Shown in pieces: positions 4,011 through 11,834 of a stretch of 39,840 bases of DNA. The translations under genes and the position numbers were made by a program. The stretch lies in the IMG/VR virus record IMGVR_UViG_3300021364_000058, positions 1 to 39,840 of that record. One strand, 5' to 3'. How positions within the stretch are numbered: position 1 is the stretch's first letter; the number at the start of each line of letters is the position of its first letter. This stretch comes from a virus. The notes beneath the pieces were generated by a model. It was not told the origin of the DNA. It saw only the letters and a list, made by a program, of their open reading frames with translations, and did no database searches.

Positions 4011-4625
4011 TTAGTCTCCTACTTCAGTAAGTACTTTCTTGCGAACTACTTTATGGAGACCTGGGTTGACCCGCAATGCGTGTGGCATAAGTTCATGCCG
4101 AATATAGTTACGCATGTATTTTGTATTTGTATTACTTGGGTCTTCTATAAAATCAACTGAATACTTTTCTGCCCACTTGTAAAACTGTTCTTTTGTGTTA
4201 AGTCTGAACGGGCGAATAATTTGCTTGCGCCGATATGGTACAATCTTACCAGTACCATGTAGCGAGCTCCAAATCCAAGTTTCAACACAATCGTCTAAGT
4301 GATGCCCAGTAACAACTTCAATATCTAACTGTTGAGCTTGTTCATCAAGCCACTTGTATCGTTCTTTACGCCAATGCTCTTCTGTACTTGTGCCGTTTGG
4401 TGCTCGAGGATCTGCAATTTCACCAATGCACAGTTTTAGATTATTGTCGTCGGCGTGTTGTTCTAAAAATGCTTGTGCTACGTCGCCTGTAGTAGTGCCG
4501 TGATTAAAGTACAGCAAGGTCACATCGTGATTGTTGCTAAGGAAGTCAGCAATTACCATAGAGTCTACGCCGCCACTGCAAGCAATAGCAATACGGCGAG
4601 AGATGTGACCTTGCAGTTTAAACAT
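4011..4625 (-). CDS. tilS: TilS-type tRNA(Ile)-lysidine synthase, catalytic domain only
   Basis: A 204-residue PP-loop ATPase. The P-loop SGGVDS is at residues 17-22. It is followed by EEHWRKERYKWL (the RxxRY segment), GHHLDDCVET (about 107-116) and FIEDPSNTNTKYMRNYIRH, the tRNA-lysidine synthase signature. TilS attaches lysine to C34 of tRNA-Ile(CAU) so that it reads AUA. It is much shorter than E. coli TilS (over 400 residues) and lacks the C-terminal tRNA-binding domains. No tRNA gene was seen in this window, so a host tRNA or a phage tRNA elsewhere would be the substrate. Its start overlaps the preceding stop (TGATG). Confidence 0.85.
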   Translation of the reverse strand: MFKLQGHISRRIAIACSGGVDSMVIADFLSNNHDVTLLYFNHGTTTGDVAQAFLEQHADDNNLKLCIGEIADPRAPNGTSTEEHWRKERYKWLDEQAQQLDIEVVTGHHLDDCVETWIWSSLHGTGKIVPYRRKQIIRPFRLNTKEQFYKWAEKYSVDFIEDPSNTNTKYMRNYIRHELMPHALRVNPGLHKVVRKKVLTEVGD

Positions 4626-4795
4626 CAGGGATTCAACACTTCTTCATAATGTTCACGAGCTTCGAGCATAAGTTCAAGTTGTACTGTATTATCATTTTGA
4701 CGACAGTCTTGAATCTCGTCGTTAATACTTTGCCAAGCTTGTTCCATTTCATTTACAATAGGCTCTTGCAGCAATTCGTAATATTGTTCACTCAT
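4625..4795 (-). CDS. Small acidic phage protein (56 aa)
   Basis: A 56-residue helical, acidic protein starting MSEQYYELLQEPIVNEMEQA. The start is chosen for the AAAGGAG site 7 nt upstream; an upstream in-frame start would overlap the HNH-like gene far more. It overlaps tilS by 1 nt. No family was recognised. Confidence 0.68.
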   Translation of the reverse strand: MSEQYYELLQEPIVNEMEQAWQSINDEIQDCRQNDNTVQLELMLEAREHYEEVLNP

Positions 4796-5261
4796 GTAAT
4801 TCTCCTTTACGTCCATCATTGTTAAGAACTGTTTTGTACCAATGACAGAAAGAGCAATATGCATTTGTATTTTCTTTACTGTTGCTACCGCCATCGGCTT
4901 TTCTAAAATCGTGATCGCCGTGGTTATAACGACGCTTTACTTCGTGTTTTTGTATATCGTCGAGATCTGCATCAAAGTAGTCTTTGCATTTTTGCCAGCG
5001 TGGATCTTCATTTACATCCTGCCCGCAACATTCACAAACATCCGAACGATGAAATGTATGCTCACGTCCAGTACGGCCATATCCGCCGTACTGAACTTGT
5101 GCTACTTGATGTTCTCTACAGTATAAGTCGTGACCGGGTCCTTTGAAAAAAGTAATTAACTCGTCACAACCGGGCATTGTGCAACAGCGACTTTCTGCGA
5201 TGATACGTTTACGTTCGAATTTACTTTTCAAGTCGTCAATTGCAACATCGCGAAAGCTCAT
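4788..5261 (-). CDS. HNH-like zinc-binding protein
   Basis: A 157-residue protein with three Cys/His clusters: CCTMPGCDE with YCREH, CECCGQD, and a C-terminal RYNHGDHDFRKADGGS..N..YCSFCHWYKT. The last resembles the D-H-I...GG..N....C..CH..KT core of HNH endonucleases. A structural zinc role is clear; nuclease activity is only inferred. The ATG overlaps the preceding stop (TAATG). It could act with the upstream DGQHR protein on nucleic acid. Confidence 0.55.
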   Translation of the reverse strand: MSFRDVAIDDLKSKFERKRIIAESRCCTMPGCDELITFFKGPGHDLYCREHQVAQVQYGGYGRTGREHTFHRSDVCECCGQDVNEDPRWQKCKDYFDADLDDIQKHEVKRRYNHGDHDFRKADGGSNSKENTNAYCSFCHWYKTVLNNDGRKGELHE

Positions 5262-6400
5262 TACCAAAGATCCTTTTCGCCTGGCGTAAAGCCGTTATTA
5301 GCACGATAAGTAGGAACTGCTCGCCCCAAACTTTTTGTAATTTGTGCATTAAAAAACGGCAAACCGTGCGTAGGTTGCTTCTGCATAGATGGCTCTTGCC
5401 ACGCTGACTGCGGCTGCTGCTCATACCAATTTTCATATGCAGTTTCGCACTTAGCCCAGAACGCACCAGTAGGCGAAAAGTTAGCATCAAACAACCCAAG
5501 ATTCATATCAGCTAGATCGTAAATATAGTTATCGTCTACATCAATACTTTGCATTTCTGCAAGCATGAGCCATGACATCAGCATATAGATCTCTTTAGGA
5601 TCAACTGCACGCTGTTTACGGATTGCACTCCAATACTTACCAAACTGTTCTACTACTTCTGGCGATGCTTGCATAATCTCTTGCATACGTGAAATAGCAC
5701 CAATTTCTTTAGTATTATCAAACTTTTCAGCAGTAACAAACAACTTATGCTTTTCTAGCATCTGTTGCTTGCGTTCTGCTTCGAGCCAAATAGGCTTTTC
5801 GCTGCCATCAACTCGTACACCGTAAATCATTTGTTGGAAGACGTCAATAGCATCTAGTGGCAGCTTGTCTTCTCCGTTAAGACCAATAAAGTTTTCACGA
5901 ATCTCTGCTTTAGTGCTTACATCATACACTACAATAGGCACATCAAAGTCTGCAGGGTTTTCATAAAACACCATTGTACTTAGAATATACAACAAGATAG
6001 CAGTGTGTTGACCGTCCCATGCTACATAACGTCCAGGACGATTTTCGTCTACATAACACTGAATAGGCATCACTTTTGTTGCTTTGAAGTCAGCAAGCAT
6101 TCTAAGGACATGATTTAGATTGAGAAGACGTTGCATAGTCACATCAATCTCAATATCACTTAGTTTGGCAGTAAGACTACGACAAAGGCGTTTTTGCACA
6201 TCGGCAATAGTTTCAAATTCCGGATGACGTCGACGAAACTCACGACTCATCATACGAAACTCAATAGCTTCGCTTTCTCCAACAAAGCTATCAAAACGCT
6301 CTGCTAAACCTACAAAGTGGCTTTCACTCTTTCCATATTGCAAGTTCCATTGATCTGCGTAAGATCCGTTAGACGGTTTAATCATAAAAGAATTAGACAT
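5261..6400 (-). CDS. DGQHR/ParB-fold-like phage protein, first gene of the early operon
   Basis: A 379-residue soluble protein. The segment RYVAWDGQHTAILLYILS (about residues 123-140) matches the 'DGQHR' motif found in ParB/sulfiredoxin-fold DNA-modification and partition-related proteins. A conserved-looking ENFIGLNGEDKLPLDAIDVF follows, like the 'F..iN....L......' segment of those families. The C-terminal third is Gln/Pro-rich. It is the first gene after the consensus early promoter at 6436-6464, so it is probably made immediately after infection. Enzymatic activity is unknown; an NTPase or nuclease of the ParB fold is possible. Confidence 0.6.
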   Translation of the reverse strand: MSNSFMIKPSNGSYADQWNLQYGKSESHFVGLAERFDSFVGESEAIEFRMMSREFRRRHPEFETIADVQKRLCRSLTAKLSDIEIDVTMQRLLNLNHVLRMLADFKATKVMPIQCYVDENRPGRYVAWDGQHTAILLYILSTMVFYENPADFDVPIVVYDVSTKAEIRENFIGLNGEDKLPLDAIDVFQQMIYGVRVDGSEKPIWLEAERKQQMLEKHKLFVTAEKFDNTKEIGAISRMQEIMQASPEVVEQFGKYWSAIRKQRAVDPKEIYMLMSWLMLAEMQSIDVDDNYIYDLADMNLGLFDANFSPTGAFWAKCETAYENWYEQQPQSAWQEPSMQKQPTHGLPFFNAQITKSLGRAVPTYRANNGFTPGEKDLW

Positions 6401-6435
6401 TTTTTCATCTCTCTATGTCTGTTAACTGTGTATAT

Positions 6436-6464
6436 AATATAGCAAGTTAATCAGGAGATGTCAA
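6436..6464 (-). promoter_or_regulatory. Consensus early sigma70-type promoter of the 14-gene operon
   Basis: Minus strand: -35 TTGACA (6459-6464), 17 bp, -10 TATATT (6436-6441). The start of transcription would fall about 30 nt before the ATG of the DGQHR-like gene. The -35 lies just past the infA stop. Confidence 0.82.
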
Positions 6465-6465
6465 C

Positions 6466-6687
6466 CTAATATCTATAGGTAATTCTGCCTTTGGTCATAT
6501 CGTAGACACTGAGTTCTATTTTTACTCTATCGCCTTCGACTAATCTGATTTTGAATTTTTTGATTTTTCCACTTGTATAAGCAGTAACAAGATGTTCGTT
6601 ATCTAACTCAACACGAAAGAATTGATTAGGTAGCATTTCGGTAATTGTGCCGTCTACCTCTATTATATCATCTTTATTCTTTCCCAT
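6466..6687 (-). CDS. infA: Translation initiation factor IF-1
   Basis: A 73-residue S1/OB-fold protein, the same size as bacterial IF-1 (72). It reads [40 protein letters not shown] and [19 protein letters not shown], matching bacterial IF-1 over its whole length, including the SGK and the final KGRI..R. IF-1 occupies the 30S A site and sets initiation fidelity together with IF-2 and IF-3. It is the last gene of a unit with an AbrB-like protein, overlapping it by 14 nt. Carriage by a phage is unusual; with the phage bS21 and TilS it suggests control of host translation. Confidence 0.93.
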
Positions 6688-6865
6688 CTATTTTTTCAAG
6701 GATGATGGTTCCTTGGTCCCCCGCTAGTATTTTCAAGTTATCTCCTGGTTTCAAATCCATTGCTTCGATAAGTTCAGGAGGGAGTACCATGTTTGTTTCT
6801 CCCTCGCTGTTCTTTTTAAAAATATCTTGATATTTATACTTTTTCTGTTCTGTTTTGTTTGTCAT
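6674..6865 (-). CDS. AbrB/SpoVT-like DNA-binding phage protein
   Basis: A 63-residue protein. The C-terminal part [20 protein letters not shown] with ILEKID follows the swapped-hairpin AbrB/MazE fold (P-x-E-l..L.pGd.l.i). The N-terminal [15 protein letters not shown] is typical of versions in T4-like marine phages, so the long start is kept. An internal Met preceded by GAGGGAG could give a shorter form of about 38 residues. It is probably a small transcriptional regulator. Confidence 0.65.
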
Positions 6866-7013
6866 TAACTATATCTGCTGCTAGAGCCTGTATCTGATCT
6901 AAGCAGTGTTTTTTATTATAAGGCTCTAAGTTTGCATCATGCTGTTTTACATACCTCGCCAAGTCGTCCATTGCTTTGATTTTTGTGATAACTTGGTCGA
7001 TACTATGTAACAT
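6834..7013 (-). CDS. Small helical phage protein (59 aa)
   Basis: It starts MLHSIDQVITKIKAMDDLAR and is highly charged and helical. A clear AAAGGAAAAATC leader precedes the ATG. It overlaps the AbrB-like gene by 32 nt. No family was recognised. Confidence 0.65.
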   Translation of the reverse strand: MLHSIDQVITKIKAMDDLARYVKQHDANLEPYNKKHCLDQIQALAADIVNDKQNRTEKV

Positions 7014-7026
7014 GATTTTTCCTTTC

Positions 7027-7563
7027 TTATGTTCGTTTCAAGTATTCAATAATATTTTCAGGTGATGTTTCTCCGTAAGGATCAAAATCTTCACCTTTGT
7101 TGTTTATACCTGGTTCTACCCACATATATTCAATATTGCCATCGTCGATGATCATAGCATAACGCCAGGACCTTTGTCCAAAGCCTAAATGATGTTTGTC
7201 AACAAGCATTCCCATCATTCTTGTGAACTCGCCGTTTCCGTCTGCAATTACTTTTACGTTTTCAATTTCTTCACGTTTAGCCCACGCATTCATTACAAAG
7301 CTATCGTTGACGCTTATGCAAAATATCTCATCAATTCCTAAATTTCTTATTTGGTCATAGTTTTCCTCAAAGCCTGGTAATTGCTGTTCAGTGCAAGTAG
7401 GCGTAAAAGCGCCAGGTAATGAAAACAAGATAACACGCTTGCCGTTAAAATAATCGCTAGTTGAGATGTCTTTCCATTCCCAGCCTTTACGTTCGCTCCA
7501 TGGAGCGTCTGGATTGCTAGGTACTCTAGTTTTCCATACACAATTAGGTATTGTTTGACACAT
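7027..7563 (-). CDS. Peroxiredoxin (Prx5/glutaredoxin-dependent type)
   Basis: A 178-residue thioredoxin-fold peroxidase. PGAFTPTCTEQQLPGF places the peroxidatic Cys at residue 57 in the invariant P-x(3)-T-x(2)-C motif. Further family motifs are CISVNDSFVMNAW, ADGNGEFTRMMG and GFGQRSWRYAMIIDDG. It reduces hydrogen peroxide or organic peroxides in the cytoplasm. Prx5-type enzymes are often recycled by glutaredoxin, and this phage encodes one (15435-15665). A weak upstream promoter is possible (GTACAA / ATTATA on the plus strand, 15 bp spacer). Confidence 0.9.
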   Translation of the reverse strand: MCQTIPNCVWKTRVPSNPDAPWSERKGWEWKDISTSDYFNGKRVILFSLPGAFTPTCTEQQLPGFEENYDQIRNLGIDEIFCISVNDSFVMNAWAKREEIENVKVIADGNGEFTRMMGMLVDKHHLGFGQRSWRYAMIIDDGNIEYMWVEPGINNKGEDFDPYGETSPENIIEYLKRT

Positions 7564-7617
7564 ATTTTAAATATTCCTTATATAATAAATTATATATCTA
7601 TGCTATTGCGTACAATA

Positions 7618-9153
7618 CTATTTTGTGGTCCAATGGAAGGTCGCTGTCTGCGGATCAGTTGCTGTGATGCTTAACCCTTTTGCAGGTAGCACAGTACCAG
7701 AACTTATTTTATCAACAAAATCTTCGCCTGAACTTATAATGGTAAAAGTTCTAGTAGACTTGTTAATTAGCATTATGTGGTCAAAGCCATCTGTAGTTTT
7801 ATAGCTTTCGTGTTGGATAAATGTTATTGCTTTCATCAAGCCTTCGTAGCTCAAAGTAACGCCTTCTGGAGTTTGATTTACTGCTGCATCTATTAGGTTT
7901 TCATAATATTGATCTGTGCGTGAGCCTCTTACTTCTTTATAGTTACTTACTAGCTCTTGTATAAGATCATGCAAAAACTGCACTGAGTCATTCTTTGAAT
8001 AACCCGCAGCATTTAAACTTCTTTGATAATTGTCGGTACCACTTTTAGTAATACCACTTACAATACTTTTTCCTTTAAGGTCGCCTTTTCTGTGTAATTG
8101 ATTCATTACTTTCCAAAGCTTATTGTGTTCTTTTCTAAGCAGTCTTGTTACTCCAGCATGGGCAGCTTTTCCTGGCTGAATCTGTGTGCCGTTCAGTCTC
8201 CCGCCTGTTGGTGCTGTACCTTTTTTATAGTTGCCGCCTTTGATTTCATATCCTTGCCCGTCTATAATTAGGTCGCCTTTTTCTTGCGCTTTCTCTGTCG
8301 GATCACCTAGGGCAGCAAGTGCTAATTCACCTGGTCCAACATTACCCCCAGTTCCAGCAGGCATGCTGTTTAGAAGATCATTTATAATTATATTATATAC
8401 GCCTTTGTGTGTTGGATTTACATAGTCATCGATAGAGCCATGACCGCCTTCTGCTCTAACTAGATTAATCATGTTTATGACTTGACCGTCAGCGGCAGCC
8501 CTAGCAAATTCTAAAGCTTCTTCTTGTTTTAGTTCACCTGTTTTAATTTTTCGTCTAAACAAAGTATCAAAAAGATCCATAAGAGTATTTTGAGTCTTTT
8601 CTCTTGTTTTCATTTTCGATATTTCGTTTTTTGTAAATCCTGCATCTTTATAATTTGGAATTACAAAACCGTCTATTTTTTGTGCAAGTCTCGCTAGCTG
8701 TGCATCAATTGCATTCATAAATTTTACAGCGTCTGCTTCTGCTGCTGCTCTGCCTTCTGCTTTTGTTTTTTCAAATGCACCATCTACAGTAACTCTTAAT
8801 TTTGCAATAGTGTCTCTGAAAGCGCCGACAATAGGATCACAGTTAGGAACTTCGTCGCAAATCATTTGTATTTTATTATTTAATTCTTCAATAAGGGTAT
8901 ATGTTGCAACATCTTCAGTGATGGGGTCGCTAACTAAATTACCGCTTTCATGTTTGTCATGATGAACTTTATTTAATATACTGCTAGCTTTGTTAATCAT
9001 CGCCTGTATCAAACCCTTTGTTTTGATTACAAGGCTTGCATCTGTTTTAGCAGCAGTGTCTAGCTCTTTTTCGATAACTTTTAGATCAGTTTCAATTTGA
9101 TTTTCTGCTTGTTCTAGTAAAAATCTTGGTGTTGAAAAATCTGTGAATTTCAT
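7618..9153 (-). CDS. Large phage protein with a PD-(D/E)XK-like core and a capsid-targeting-like N terminus
   Basis: A 511-residue soluble protein. Residues 20-160 are largely coiled coil. The centre reads GPGELALAALG (about 273-283) then KGDLIIDGQGYEIKGG (292-307), with Asp294, Glu303 and Lys305 spaced like the D...E-x-K core of PD-(D/E)XK nucleases. A Gly-rich GRLNGTQIQPGKAA follows. The N terminus MKFTDFSTPRFLLE/Q fits a capsid-targeting peptide with an (L)-L-E cleavage site. A late-type motif lies 19 nt upstream. A packaged nuclease-fold virion protein is an inference; otherwise function is unknown. Confidence 0.6.
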   Translation of the reverse strand: MKFTDFSTPRFLLEQAENQIETDLKVIEKELDTAAKTDASLVIKTKGLIQAMINKASSILNKVHHDKHESGNLVSDPITEDVATYTLIEELNNKIQMICDEVPNCDPIVGAFRDTIAKLRVTVDGAFEKTKAEGRAAAEADAVKFMNAIDAQLARLAQKIDGFVIPNYKDAGFTKNEISKMKTREKTQNTLMDLFDTLFRRKIKTGELKQEEALEFARAAADGQVINMINLVRAEGGHGSIDDYVNPTHKGVYNIIINDLLNSMPAGTGGNVGPGELALAALGDPTEKAQEKGDLIIDGQGYEIKGGNYKKGTAPTGGRLNGTQIQPGKAAHAGVTRLLRKEHNKLWKVMNQLHRKGDLKGKSIVSGITKSGTDNYQRSLNAAGYSKNDSVQFLHDLIQELVSNYKEVRGSRTDQYYENLIDAAVNQTPEGVTLSYEGLMKAITFIQHESYKTTDGFDHIMLINKSTRTFTIISSGEDFVDKISSGTVLPAKGLSITATDPQTATFHWTTK

Positions 9154-9172
9154 ATGTAAACTCCGTATGCAG

Positions 9173-9178
9173 TATTTA
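9173..9178 (-). promoter_or_regulatory. Late-type TAAATA motif
   Basis: Minus-strand context GATAAATAC, 19 nt before the ATG of the 511-residue gene, with GGAG between. Confidence 0.55.
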
Positions 9179-9185
9179 TCGAAGT

Positions 9186-9488
9186 TTAATCATTATCCAT
9201 AGTAACGTCTAACTGAAATCCTGAATTGTTACTAATTAAAACGCACTCTAGAATTTTTTGTTCTGCTACTTCAAATGTGTAATTACCCACAGCAGCCATA
9301 CCTTCACGTTCTATTTCTTCAATACATGATTCTGCACTTTCATCTGTATGATGGAAAATACCTAAAAGTATTTCTTTTACTAGATTTCTTGGTGTAGTAT
9401 CGTTGTCAAACACATAAACCTTAAACTTAGAAGGAATAGGAGGGTTAGTTGAAATAGTTTCGTTAATGCTCACTTTTGCTTTAGTCAT
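9186..9488 (-). CDS. clpS: ClpS-like Clp protease adaptor with an altered N-degron pocket
   Basis: A 100-residue protein with the ClpS core: KFKVYVFDNDTTP, LVKEILLGIFHHTDESAES and GNYTFEVAEQKI. ClpS docks on ClpA and delivers N-end-rule substrates to ClpP. Against E. coli ClpS from memory, Asn34-Asp35 are replaced by Asp28-Asn29, Met40 by Arg34 and His66 by Glu60. The residues that hold the substrate alpha-amino group and form the pocket are therefore not conserved, although the fold and the ClpA-facing helix look intact. It may redirect or block host ClpAP. It lies behind its own late-type motif and upstream of the terminator of hsp20's unit. Confidence 0.82.
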   Translation of the reverse strand: MTKAKVSINETISTNPPIPSKFKVYVFDNDTTPRNLVKEILLGIFHHTDESAESCIEEIEREGMAAVGNYTFEVAEQKILECVLISNNSGFQLDVTMDND

Positions 9489-9505
9489 TGAATGCCTCTT
9501 TTAAG

Positions 9506-9511
9506 TATTTA
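9506..9511 (-). promoter_or_regulatory. Late-type TAAATA motif for clpS
   Basis: Minus-strand context GCTAAATAC, 17 nt before the clpS ATG, immediately downstream of the hsp20 hairpin. Confidence 0.55.
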
Positions 9512-9521
9512 GCTACAGGTG

Positions 9522-9541
9522 AAGGGGGATTGCTCCCCCTT
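9522..9541 (-). terminator. GC-rich hairpin after hsp20
   Basis: Minus strand AAGGGGGA, loop GCAA, TCCCCCTT, an 8-bp perfect stem. The U-tract is short on the minus strand. It lies between the hsp20 stop and the clpS late motif. Confidence 0.65.
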
Positions 9542-9547
9542 TTATTA

Positions 9548-9994
9548 TTACCCATCAATCAGATTGGGTTCGGTGATTGCAATCTTTTTAGGTTGCAGTT
9601 CTTCTGGTACATAACGCTTCAAATGAACGTTAAGCATACCCAGTTCAAGTGATGCACTTTCTACTTCAATATGGTCAGCAAGAGTAAATTCTCTAGTGAA
9701 ATTGCGTGAACCAATACCTTTGTGCAAATAGTCTACTTCGCCGTTAGTTTCTGGTGAAGCACCTTGTACTGTAAGTACATTTTTTTCCAAAGTAATATCT
9801 AGATCAGCCATACTGAAACCTGCAACAGCAACAGAGATAACAAATTCATCGTCTGTCACTTTGACAATATTATATGGCGGATATGAAGTAGTTTTTGAGT
9901 TCTCGAACACTCTGTCCATTTCACGGAACATTCTATCAAAACCAATAGTTGCACGGTGGAGTTGTGGTAAGTCGAGAGTAGTGTATCTTGTCAT
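9548..9994 (-). CDS. Hsp20-family small heat-shock protein
   Basis: A 148-residue alpha-crystallin-domain chaperone. NIVKVTDDEFVISVAVAGF, LDITLEKNVLTVQG and FTREFTLADHIEVESASLE then GMLNVHLKRYVPEE match the crystallin strands, including the G-x-L (GML) motif. A short IxI-like tail (KIAI) follows. It binds unfolded proteins to prevent aggregation and is very common in T4-like marine phages, where a role in virion assembly is suspected. The start MTRYTT is chosen for AAAGGAG 8 nt upstream. Its promoter carries both early and late elements (10050-10080). Confidence 0.93.
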   Translation of the reverse strand: MTRYTTLDLPQLHRATIGFDRMFREMDRVFENSKTTSYPPYNIVKVTDDEFVISVAVAGFSMADLDITLEKNVLTVQGASPETNGEVDYLHKGIGSRNFTREFTLADHIEVESASLELGMLNVHLKRYVPEELQPKKIAITEPNLIDG

Positions 9995-10020
9995 TTTTAT
10001 CTCCTTTATAAGCAAGATAT

Positions 10021-10050
10021 AATAGTGAGCCCTTTTCGGCGCTCACTATT
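10021..10050 (-). repeat. Hairpin at the 5' end of the hsp20 mRNA / terminator of the guaC operon
   Basis: A 10-bp perfect stem, AATAGTGAGC with GCTCACTATT, around a 10-nt loop. It lies downstream of the TATAAATA element, so an hsp20 transcript would begin almost directly with it. It could also end guaC transcripts, but the U-tract is poor. Confidence 0.65.
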
Positions 10051-10080
10051 ATTTATACATGGAATCACAGCGTTTGTCAA
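10050..10080 (-). promoter_or_regulatory. Superimposed early and late promoters for hsp20
   Basis: Minus strand: TTGACA (10075-10080), 17 bp, TATAAATA (10050-10057). TATAAA serves as a sigma70 -10 at ideal spacing, while the whole octamer is the exact T4 late promoter. The -35 overlaps the guaC stop codon. Confidence 0.72.
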
Positions 10081-11201
10081 TTCCCGATAGTATTTTTTTC
10101 GTATACTGCATTGTGTGTTTGTGTGCAACGCACAAAGGTTGTACACTTACTAAGTTGCTTGAGGGTTTCTGCTCCTACATACGTGCAAGTGCTTCGAATA
10201 CCGCCGAGAATATCTTGTACGGTATTTTCTACTGGGCCACGGTAGGGCACAAGAATAGTACGACCTTCTGACGAACGGTAATCTTTGAGCCCGCCAAAGT
10301 GCTTTTTGTTTGCAGTTTGACTACTCATTCCGTAGAACTTACGAAACTCTTTACGTTCGATAACCGGCTTATAAACTTCGTCTTCTTTCATATAGTAATA
10401 TTCGTTATTATGCACGTACTTAAAGATTTCTTCGCCGCCGCCTTCGTCGTGGCCAGCTAGCATCCCGCCGAGCATTACAAAGTCTGCACCCGCAGCAAAT
10501 GCTTTGGCTACATCGCCTGGAGTCGTACAACCACCATCAGCAATAATATGTCCACCAAGACCATGAGCAGCATCGGCACATTCCATGACTGCAGAAAGCT
10601 GCGGATATCCCACCCCAGTCTGAATCCTAGTAGTGCAGACGCTACCAGGACCAATACCGACTTTGATAATATCAGCTCCATTTAGAATTAACTCCTGTGT
10701 TTGATCTGCTGTAACTACGTTACCAGCAATAATAGTTTTAAAAGGATAAGTTTCACGTAGGTGTCTAATAAATTCTACAAAACGTTCTGTATAACCGTTT
10801 GCTACATCTACACAAACGAATTGCAATTTGTCTAAAACTTTTTGATGTACTTGCTCAAGTTTATCCAAATCAGCATCACCGATACCAATACTCATTGCCA
10901 CGTAAGGCTGCGGTTCTGAAAAGAAATCGGCCAGTTCTTCTGCTGAGTAAGTCTTTACCAAACAAGTAAACATTTTATGGTTGCTCAAAGTACGAGCCAT
11001 TTCAAATGTTCCCACACCGTCCATGTTAGCAGCCATGATAGGAACGCCGTTGTAATCATAGTCGTTAATACGAGCGCCTTTTGCACCTACAAAATTGTAG
11101 CTACGCTCCATAGTAACATTTTTACGAGAAGTAAGACGGCTACGCTTAGGACGAATCAGCACGTCTTTATAATCTAGTTTTACATCATTTTCTAAGTGCA
11201 T
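10077..11201 (-). CDS. guaC: GMP reductase
   Basis: A 374-residue (beta/alpha)8 enzyme of the IMPDH/GMPR family without CBS domains. [20 protein letters not shown] contains the catalytic Cys189. Also present are [45 protein letters not shown] and [10 protein letters not shown], and a C-terminal flap FYGMSS with [10 protein letters not shown]. The CTTR-IQTG and GCTTPGD reading fits GMPR rather than IMPDH. It deaminates GMP to IMP with NADPH, letting guanine from degraded host nucleic acid re-enter IMP and adenine pools. It is translationally coupled to rpsU (1-nt overlap) and lies at the end of an early operon starting near 14343. Confidence 0.92.
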
Positions 11202-11461
11202 TAGAATCCCCGTTGGGCAATATCTTTTCTAAGTTTTTTAAGATGTCGAGCACGACCAGCAGCTTTTTCACGTTTGCGCACCTGACTGGGTTTAATAAAT
11301 TCTTTACGCTGTCTAAATTCTTGGATAATGCCTTCTTCTTGAACACGCTTTTTGAACCTACGTGCTGCTCCACCAAAGTCATTATTTTTTACAACAACCT
11401 GCATGCCTTTTTTGTGTAACACTTCTCTGGCATAAGATTCTATATGTTTATTACGGGACAA
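11201..11461 (-). CDS. rpsU: Ribosomal protein bS21
   Basis: An 86-residue basic protein. [37 protein letters not shown] and [19 protein letters not shown] align with bacterial S21 over its full length; an extra 17-residue N-terminal segment precedes the core. bS21 sits near the anti-Shine-Dalgarno end of 16S rRNA on the 30S platform and exchanges readily, so a phage copy can change which mRNAs are initiated. Phage bS21 has been reported in SAR11 myophages. It overlaps the upstream gene by 11 nt and guaC by 1 nt. Confidence 0.95.
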
Positions 11462-11834
11462 TTAAACCTCCTATCTTTTCAATTAATTGGTCATAACTAT
11501 ATAGCTGCTTTCTACTAAGCATAGTATAAAATACATTGTTACCTTGTGTCAACCAGTATGTATTTGATTTAGATAAAATATATCCATCAATTACTCTTAC
11601 TTGTGGATCAGAATTATCCATATCGTAAAACACAAGATTACTCTGATCGATACATGACATAAGCCAATCAGGATCATGCTCTTGCGGCTCATACATATAC
11701 ACTGTGATATTTTCATCCACAGTTTTTAAATACTCACTTAACAAGTTTTTCACTTCTGCTCTAGGATAAATCAAAAGCAGTTTGATACTATCATCATAAA
11801 TCTTGTCAGGTGGTGTCGCTACTGCGATTTCCAT
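11451..11834 (-). CDS. Conserved-looking phage protein, unknown (127 aa)
   Basis: A 127-residue acidic protein with alternating strands and helices, for example IKLLLIYPRAEVKNLLSEYL, SNLVFYDMDNSD and YWLTQGNNVFYTML. It resembles a Rossmann-like or receiver-type layout but lacks a diagnostic motif. It overlaps the large membrane-protein gene by 29 nt and rpsU by 11 nt. Function is unknown. Confidence 0.6.
   Translation of the reverse strand: MEIAVATPPDKIYDDSIKLLLIYPRAEVKNLLSEYLKTVDENITVYMYEPQEHDPDWLMSCIDQSNLVFYDMDNSDPQVRVIDGYILSKSNTYWLTQGNNVFYTMLSRKQLYSYDQLIEKIGGLIVP

Follow-up and report, generated by a model that had tools for sequence, protein, structure and literature searches.

Phage-encoded translation genes, with a proposed takeover of host translation, are already known, and what is new in the locus described here is a set of such genes in largely conserved order that includes a tRNA(Ile)-lysidine synthetase (TilS) consisting of its N-terminal domain (NTD) only. 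In the survey of huge phages published in Nature in 2020 (PMC7162821; papers given by PMC number are cited, here and below, from excerpts of their text), IF1, IF3, S21 and tRNA-modification genes are likewise reported, together with the proposal that host initiation is taken over. A Sinorhizobium jumbo phage has been described with S21, L7/L12 and IF-3 (PMC11242549), a TilS of phage MIJ3 was described in 2019 (PMC6892783), and the bS21 of Pelagibacter phage HTVC008M is reported to enter E. coli ribosomes (cited in PMC9723584 and PMC9976891). Two further papers, searched for these translation-gene terms, gave none of them (PMC13157829) or IF3 only (PMC7824862), and text searches of the open-licence literature, supplementary tables apart, listed no paper that places IF-1, bS21 and TilS together at a conserved locus of a phage. 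The DNA analysed here, called the window throughout, is the whole 39,840-base virus record IMGVR_UViG_3300021364_000058 of IMG/VR, and its genes infA (translation initiation factor IF-1), rpsU (ribosomal protein bS21) and tilS are the subject of this study. A sequence-only reading of the same DNA had considered the combination of IF-1 and bS21 rarely described, a view overtaken by the 2020 report of IF1, IF3 and S21 in huge phages, which carries the same idea of redirection.

The three translation genes and their relatives

All three genes lie on the minus strand of the window; at their coordinates the plus-strand readings contain stops and the minus-strand readings are open.

4011-4625, minus strand: tilS, NTD-only tRNA(Ile)-lysidine synthetase-like protein, 204 residues, ATG start; TIGR02432 (lysidine_TilS_N) 120.5 bits against a cut-off of 93.6
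6466-6687, minus strand: infA, translation initiation factor IF-1, 73 residues, ATG start; TIGR00008 106.5 bits against a cut-off of 61.15
11201-11461, minus strand: rpsU, ribosomal protein bS21, 86 residues, TTG (UUG) start; TIGR00030 53.1 bits against a cut-off of 28.95

IF-1 matches the TIGR00008 equivalog model over positions 1-69 of 69, that is, over its full length, and PF01176 over 64/64 positions (E 7.1e-22). When 13 phage IF-1s were aligned with that of E. coli, 17 columns were invariant, and from its sequence the protein looks canonical. The bS21 matches TIGR00030 over 1-58 of 58 and PF01165 with E 1.2e-14, and it recurs with 100% and 99% identity in two other contigs with the same gene neighbours. 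Relative to E. coli bS21, the phage protein is extended at the N terminus, as has likewise been recorded for the S21 of huge phages (PMC7162821).

TilS matches PF01171 over 2-182 of 182 (E 8.2e-32), and this PP-loop catalytic domain is the entire protein. Its AlphaFold model (predicted local distance difference test, pLDDT, 94.1) finds TilS as the best folds in the PDB, with that of A. aeolicus at the top (template modelling, TM, scores 0.81-0.84), and a profile of the phage TilS ranks the A. aeolicus, E. coli and Geobacillus TilS chains ahead of other PP-loop enzymes. The residues which we take to form the active site (D36, R113, H133, D137 and R205 in A. aeolicus numbering) align, as counted by hand, with D21, R89, H108, D112 and R176 of the window protein, which are invariant in 32 phage sequences. 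In 56/56 viral loci found with the window protein the frame ends after the NTD, with at most 26 residues beyond the match, and 54 viral TilS measure 197-219 residues from match start to stop (the partial L060 and L077 were left out). No C-terminal tRNA-contacting domain (CTD1 with or without CTD2) was found in the phage TilS; published TilS have one or two C-terminal domains touching tRNA (PMC12514573). Because these domains are absent, the protein is filed as TilS-like, with catalysis predicted from its sequence, and not as type I or II. The full-length, conserved IF-1 and bS21 and the intact TilS catalytic domain claimed by the sequence-only reading are thus confirmed at the positions listed above, and the strand, which it had left unstated, is the minus strand.

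Profile searches covered 45 contigs, 42 of them reached via TilS and three via bS21 (14 shorter TilS contigs were left out). IF-1 was found in 14 and bS21 in 15. The co-occurrence of infA and rpsU in other phages, which the sequence-only reading had put forward as a check, was seen together with TilS in 10 of the 45 (G018, G019, G020, G021, G023, G031, G037, G042, G053 and G054), among which the pairs G018/G019 and G053/G054 each seem to represent a single virus. The same reading had entertained absence from all related phages as a sign of an assembly error; the relatives carry the genes, assembly error is rejected on account of homologues in many contigs, and chance occurrence is excluded because relatives carry bS21, TilS and IF-1. 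Genes missing from relatives say little, since no record is known to be complete. IF-1 homologues were found at 19 viral loci, and bS21 in 3 of 15 contigs (of 19) reached via IF-1. Searches of the phage genome collection at E 0.01 gave 36 records for IF-1, 22 for bS21 and 36 for TilS, and no record is shared by the IF-1 and bS21 lists; the queries were single sequences, with which distant homologues go undetected, and some unannotated records in these lists may be bacterial DNA. No IF3_C match was found in 15 contigs, and peptide deformylase is present in two of them (G020:79884-80333 and G112:10244-10693), both of which also have IF-1 and bS21.

The order rpsU, infA, tilS on the same strand is found in the window and in six of the eight other tabulated contigs, and the coordinates of the three genes in G066, G076 and G114 fit it. 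All three genes are under purifying selection, as judged from the proportions of nonsynonymous (pN) and synonymous (pS) differences: infA gives pN 0.11-0.19 and pS 0.62-0.93 over five pairs, rpsU pN 0.005 and pS 0.109 between the window and the L081 contig, and tilS pN 0.019-0.111 and pS 0.10-0.78 over three pairs. The possibility of a truncated or decaying TilS was rejected, its relatives having the same length and pN being low. The IF-1 tree (112 sequences, 35 phage and 77 bacterial, the latter from the best 80 among the matches listed; 72 columns, midpoint root, bootstrap not settled and many forks open) has a branch, supported at 99/91, that sets the window IF-1 and 20 further phage sequences apart on one side, and places 14 more distant phage IF-1s elsewhere, at unsettled forks. 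A recent separate capture of infA by the window phage is unlikely, as this branch holds its IF-1 together with the 20 others. By tree path, the closest to the window IF-1 among these bacterial rows are Alphaproteobacteria, at unsettled forks that assign no host.

Initiation signals, start codons and tRNAs

The leader of rpsU stands out among those of the window for the strength of its motif.

11462-11480, minus strand: rpsU leader with the Shine-Dalgarno (SD) motif AGGAGG; duplex -11.4 kcal/mol, stronger than that of any other gene among the 59 of the window

With scoring that assumes a canonical anti-SD, SD-like motifs precede 32 of the 59 window genes, compared with 6% of 3000 random positions; for infA and tilS the SD duplex is +0.4 and -3.0, that is, practically none. 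The 61-nt leaders of the three genes, which are those that were folded, form structures no more stable than those of shuffled sequences (z 0.14, 0.60 and 0.79). The SD counts and the unremarkable folding speak for many window genes being initiated, as predicted from sequence, in the ordinary SD-led way, and they do not favour the leaderless and hairpin-controlled leaders that the sequence-only reading had ascribed to this genome. Leaderless mRNAs may still occur, since sequence does not reveal transcript starts and only three leaders were folded.

Start codons were surveyed in the best 80 of 320 bS21 loci, where the best rpsU start is TTG in 62, GTG in 8, ATG in 7 and none of these in 3. After removal of near-copies (more than 90% alike), the 47 distinct genes, which come from close relatives, have TTG in 37, where it follows a strong SD, ATG in 6, GTG in 3 and none in 1, and TTG is the sole start candidate in 31 of them. 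Over genes of all kinds, TTG starts 58 of 795 called genes in nine sequences (4-13% each), as counted with a rough start caller that failed to place the beginning of rpsU in G020 and G031. The first 13 rpsU compared (window plus 12) divide into seven with TTG and six with ATG (G011, G015, G021, G023, G037 and G042); the latter include the more distant relatives, which counts against a strict UUG rule. The rpsU of Pelagibacter phage Mosig starts with TTG, and ATG is the annotated start in HTVC008M, in Salicola phage SCTP-2 and in Microcystis phage Mel-JY01. Among 29 cellular rpsU, the script called GTG in 14, ATG in 10 and TTG in 5 (one further gene had no candidate), but four of the five TTG calls precede the customary N terminus, at which two of these genes have GTG and two ATG; the sample is not a fair one for bacteria because the genomes were chosen for IF-1s resembling phage IF-1s. 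The UUG start as a trait of every phage, or of phages exclusively, was rejected, distant relatives having ATG and cellular rpsU often GTG. The nine IF-1 contigs among the bS21 set, inspected for a link between UUG and IF-1, include TTG, GTG and ATG starts. In L390, L392 and L394, around 2955-2980, the rpsU frame has no ATG, GTG or TTG where one is expected, and an ATC stands at start-codon distance after AGAGGAG.

It is possible that, in this lineage, bS21 synthesis tends to be gated by a strong SD combined with a weak start codon. In E. coli, rpsT starts with UUG and infC with AUU, which offers analogies. Feedback on rpsU through an extended SD has been shown in Flavobacterium (PMC9976891), and no paper naming rpsU with a "UUG start codon" was found in the open-licence literature. 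The UUG start of the phage rpsU suggests a simple reporter test of bS21 feedback control.

AUA accounts for 197 of the 713 Ile codons in the 59 window genes, and for 26-50% of Ile codons across the window and nine other contigs. ARAGORN, run on 15 sequences (13 contigs or contig parts, L080 and L082), found tRNAs in nine, with up to 28 in one. The scanned relatives contain 16 tRNAs with a CAU anticodon. Six of these carry A11 as in E. coli tRNA-fMet, and five of the six also have a mismatch at 1:72, features which, by comparison with E. coli, we take to mark initiators; the other ten lack A11 and have 1:72 paired (G-U counted). The six lie at G020:117398, G053:66666, G023:2524 and 4478, G037:32666 and G042:140824, so that these five contigs hold initiator-like tRNAs besides bS21, IF-1 and TilS; the E. 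coli initiator anticodon-stem triple G-C is complete in none of the six. The E. coli determinants C4:G69 and C5:G68 (PMC12069591; Burkholderia TilS relies on other elements, PMC12514573) occur in one of the ten non-initiator CAU tRNAs (G042, 139709), among which tRNA-Ile2 and elongator tRNA-Met are not separable. A tRNA array just beyond the left window edge, expected from the relatives, was not seen in L173 and L174, and an Rfam scan of the window gave no family at the gathering score. On the 318-kb phage contig G042, where AUA makes up 50% of Ile codons, ARAGORN also reports a tRNA with a CUA anticodon (138544-138617, L158), a possible amber reader.

Neighbouring genes and phage content

Both infA and rpsU overlap a neighbouring gene, and rpsU is followed by genes of host-like character.

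6674-6865, minus strand: AbrB/MazE-like gene, 63 residues; PF04014 E 7.2e-07; overlaps the start of infA by 14 bases
9186-9488, minus strand: clpS, Clp protease adaptor homologue near rpsU; PF02617 E 1.2e-12
10077-11201, minus strand: guaC, GMP reductase, directly downstream of rpsU; NF003470 514.8 bits against a cut-off of 397
11451-11834, minus strand: possibly receiver-like protein, 127 residues, directly upstream of rpsU and overlapping it; conserved in relatives

In the 12 other infA contigs compared, a homologue of the AbrB/MazE-like gene lies directly upstream of infA in six (G018, G020, G021, G023, G031 and G053), 1 kb away in G037 and 10 kb away in G015, and was not found in G011, G028, G034 and G042. 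The model of the 127-residue protein (pLDDT 87.0) weakly matches a CheY-like receiver (E 7.8e-4, TM about 0.5) and, also weakly, a nucleoside deoxyribosyltransferase (TM 0.65, E 1.5e-3). Homologues of this gene were found at 76 of 80 bS21 loci, of guaC at 72 and of hsp20 at 51, some loci being cut short. Homologues of clpS are present in 11 of the 15 sequences compared, and Salicola phage SCTP-2 (L454:258-2146) has clpX (as annotated), rpsU and clpS in that order. On another contig with an rpsU of this lineage, three adjacent genes resemble CsgF, CsgG and curlin repeats (L082:15589-17597, names given by eye).

That the translation genes stand on a contig bearing phage genes follows from the family search, which found ribonucleotide reductase, virion-structural and tail-fibre families of phages in the window. 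A PD-(D/E)XK phage-type exonuclease has its best phage-collection matches in PA5oct-like and GAP32/CBB-like phages. The host-like genes are GMP reductase, Hsp20, ClpS, a peroxiredoxin-family protein, a NifU domain and an Hc1-like protein. The lineage is one of uncultured large phages, with PA5oct-, GAP32- and cyanophage-type phages as the nearest cultured kin suggested by two genes. At 295-1239 the window encodes a 314-residue membrane-type protein with no Pfam match at E 0.01 and at least 597 relatives in viral contigs.

Proposed role and comparison with known systems

The reading we prefer, with a probability of about 0.55, is that of a phage-owned translation-support set, in which bS21 and IF-1 would join host initiation and TilS would serve AUA decoding, keeping phage translation high. 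Because selection acts on its genes and their order is often preserved, the set probably serves to run host translation for the phage. During infection, phage bS21 would exchange into host 30S subunits, on which phage IF-1 would join initiation, and TilS would lysidinylate a CAU tRNA, most likely one of the phage's own, allowing the abundant AUA codons to be read. The reported entry of HTVC008M bS21 into E. coli ribosomes lends this published support. As a net effect, phage mRNAs, many of which bear an ordinary SD, would be initiated and decoded at a maintained or raised level, with no switch to leaderless or structured leaders. Of the interpretation given by the sequence-only reading, the part that finds support is that the three are real translation genes, which related phages inherit together, with AUA frequent among Ile codons; rarity, special leaders and an altered choice of mRNA are not supported. 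Several observations weigh against a support set of this kind. No tRNA gene was found in the window, in 6 of the 15 scanned sequences, or in the near relatives L173 and L174, which extend 1.4 and 2.1 kb past the left end of the window; the phage TilS lacks the domains by which known enzymes contact tRNA; the gene order differs in G037 and G042; and a search of 50 further bS21 contigs (fragments, from 80 fetched as the best 80 of 320) found IF-1 in no more than nine, with TilS over its cut-off in three of the seven tested among those nine.

A serious rival, if an unlikely one, is that the phage replaces bS21 or IF-1 lost or destroyed in the host and leaves specificity unchanged, as replenishment or counter-defence, with ClpS possibly helping to remove host bS21. 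The frequency of clpS (11/15) and the row clpX, rpsU, clpS of SCTP-2 agree with this, and a phage protease acting against host bS21 has been speculated upon by the authors of PMC9976891; however, the link of ClpS to bS21 is one of gene proximity, and in G031 clpS lies near rpsU, yet guaC and hsp20 were not found there. Less probable again is the proposal of the sequence-only reading that phage IF-1 and bS21 alter the choice of mRNA in favour of leaderless or structured-leader phage messages. It is favoured by the position of bS21 beside the anti-SD, by the preference of Flavobacterium ribosomes without bS21 for strong-SD mRNA (PMC9976891) and by the N-terminal extension that phage bS21 shares with huge-phage S21 (PMC7162821), but the excess of SD-like motifs (32/59 against 6%), the normal folding of the three leaders and a canonical-looking IF-1 that retains 17 residues invariant with E. 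coli all oppose it, and no evidence for it was found in the sequence.

We consider quite improbable a self-regulated phage initiation system in which UUG and a strong SD would make bS21 output depend on start-codon strictness, IF-1 and initiator-type tRNAs of the phage would tune that strictness, and rising bS21 would damp its own synthesis; TilS, without tRNA-contacting domains, would in addition have a relaxed, anticodon-centred specificity and edit CAU tRNAs beyond tRNA-Ile2. Least probable is a non-ribosomal job for IF-1, for instance as a small OB-fold RNA chaperone or antiterminator alongside the overlapping AbrB-like protein. IF-1 has RNA chaperone activity, and the AbrB-like gene immediately precedes infA in the window and in half of the 12 other infA contigs, but the pairing is missing in the other half, and the protein passes the IF-1 equivalog model and has retained the residues that do not vary between phage and E. 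coli IF-1.

The locus offers one natural, compact, co-inherited set for testing phage takeover of initiation, with bS21 and IF-1 from one phage and initiator-like tRNAs in its relatives. The NTD-only TilS, if active, would show a minimal enzyme for lysidine formation and bear on the discrimination of tRNA-Ile2 from tRNA-Met. With the bacterial TilS of types I and II it shares the PP-loop catalytic domain, whereas CTD1 and CTD2 are absent from it (PMC12514573). A TilS of similarly small size is present in Pseudomonas phages MIJ3 and PA5oct (PMC6892783), with 44% identity to that of the window across residues 1-201 of 204, and unlike the window their records have no IF-1 or bS21 match at E 0.01. 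Full-length IF-1s, 41-48% identical to that of the window, are found in Lak phages, Sinorhizobium phage Phosso, Bacteroides phages DAC16 and others, in whose records the window bS21 as query found no bS21 match at E 0.01. With the bS21 phages described in ISME Commun. in 2022 (PMC9723584) and Pelagibacter phages HTVC008M and Mosig, the window has a phage rpsU in common; the excerpted text of that paper contains no mention of initiation factor, IF-1, IF1, infA or lysidine, and its phages are linked to Bacteroidetes, whereas here rpsU lies beside the possibly receiver-like gene, guaC, hsp20 and clpS. Finally, the huge-phage survey (PMC7162821) lists translation genes across many phages, whereas the set described here belongs to one lineage, without IF3_C in the contigs compared, and is kept in a largely conserved order with an NTD-only TilS.

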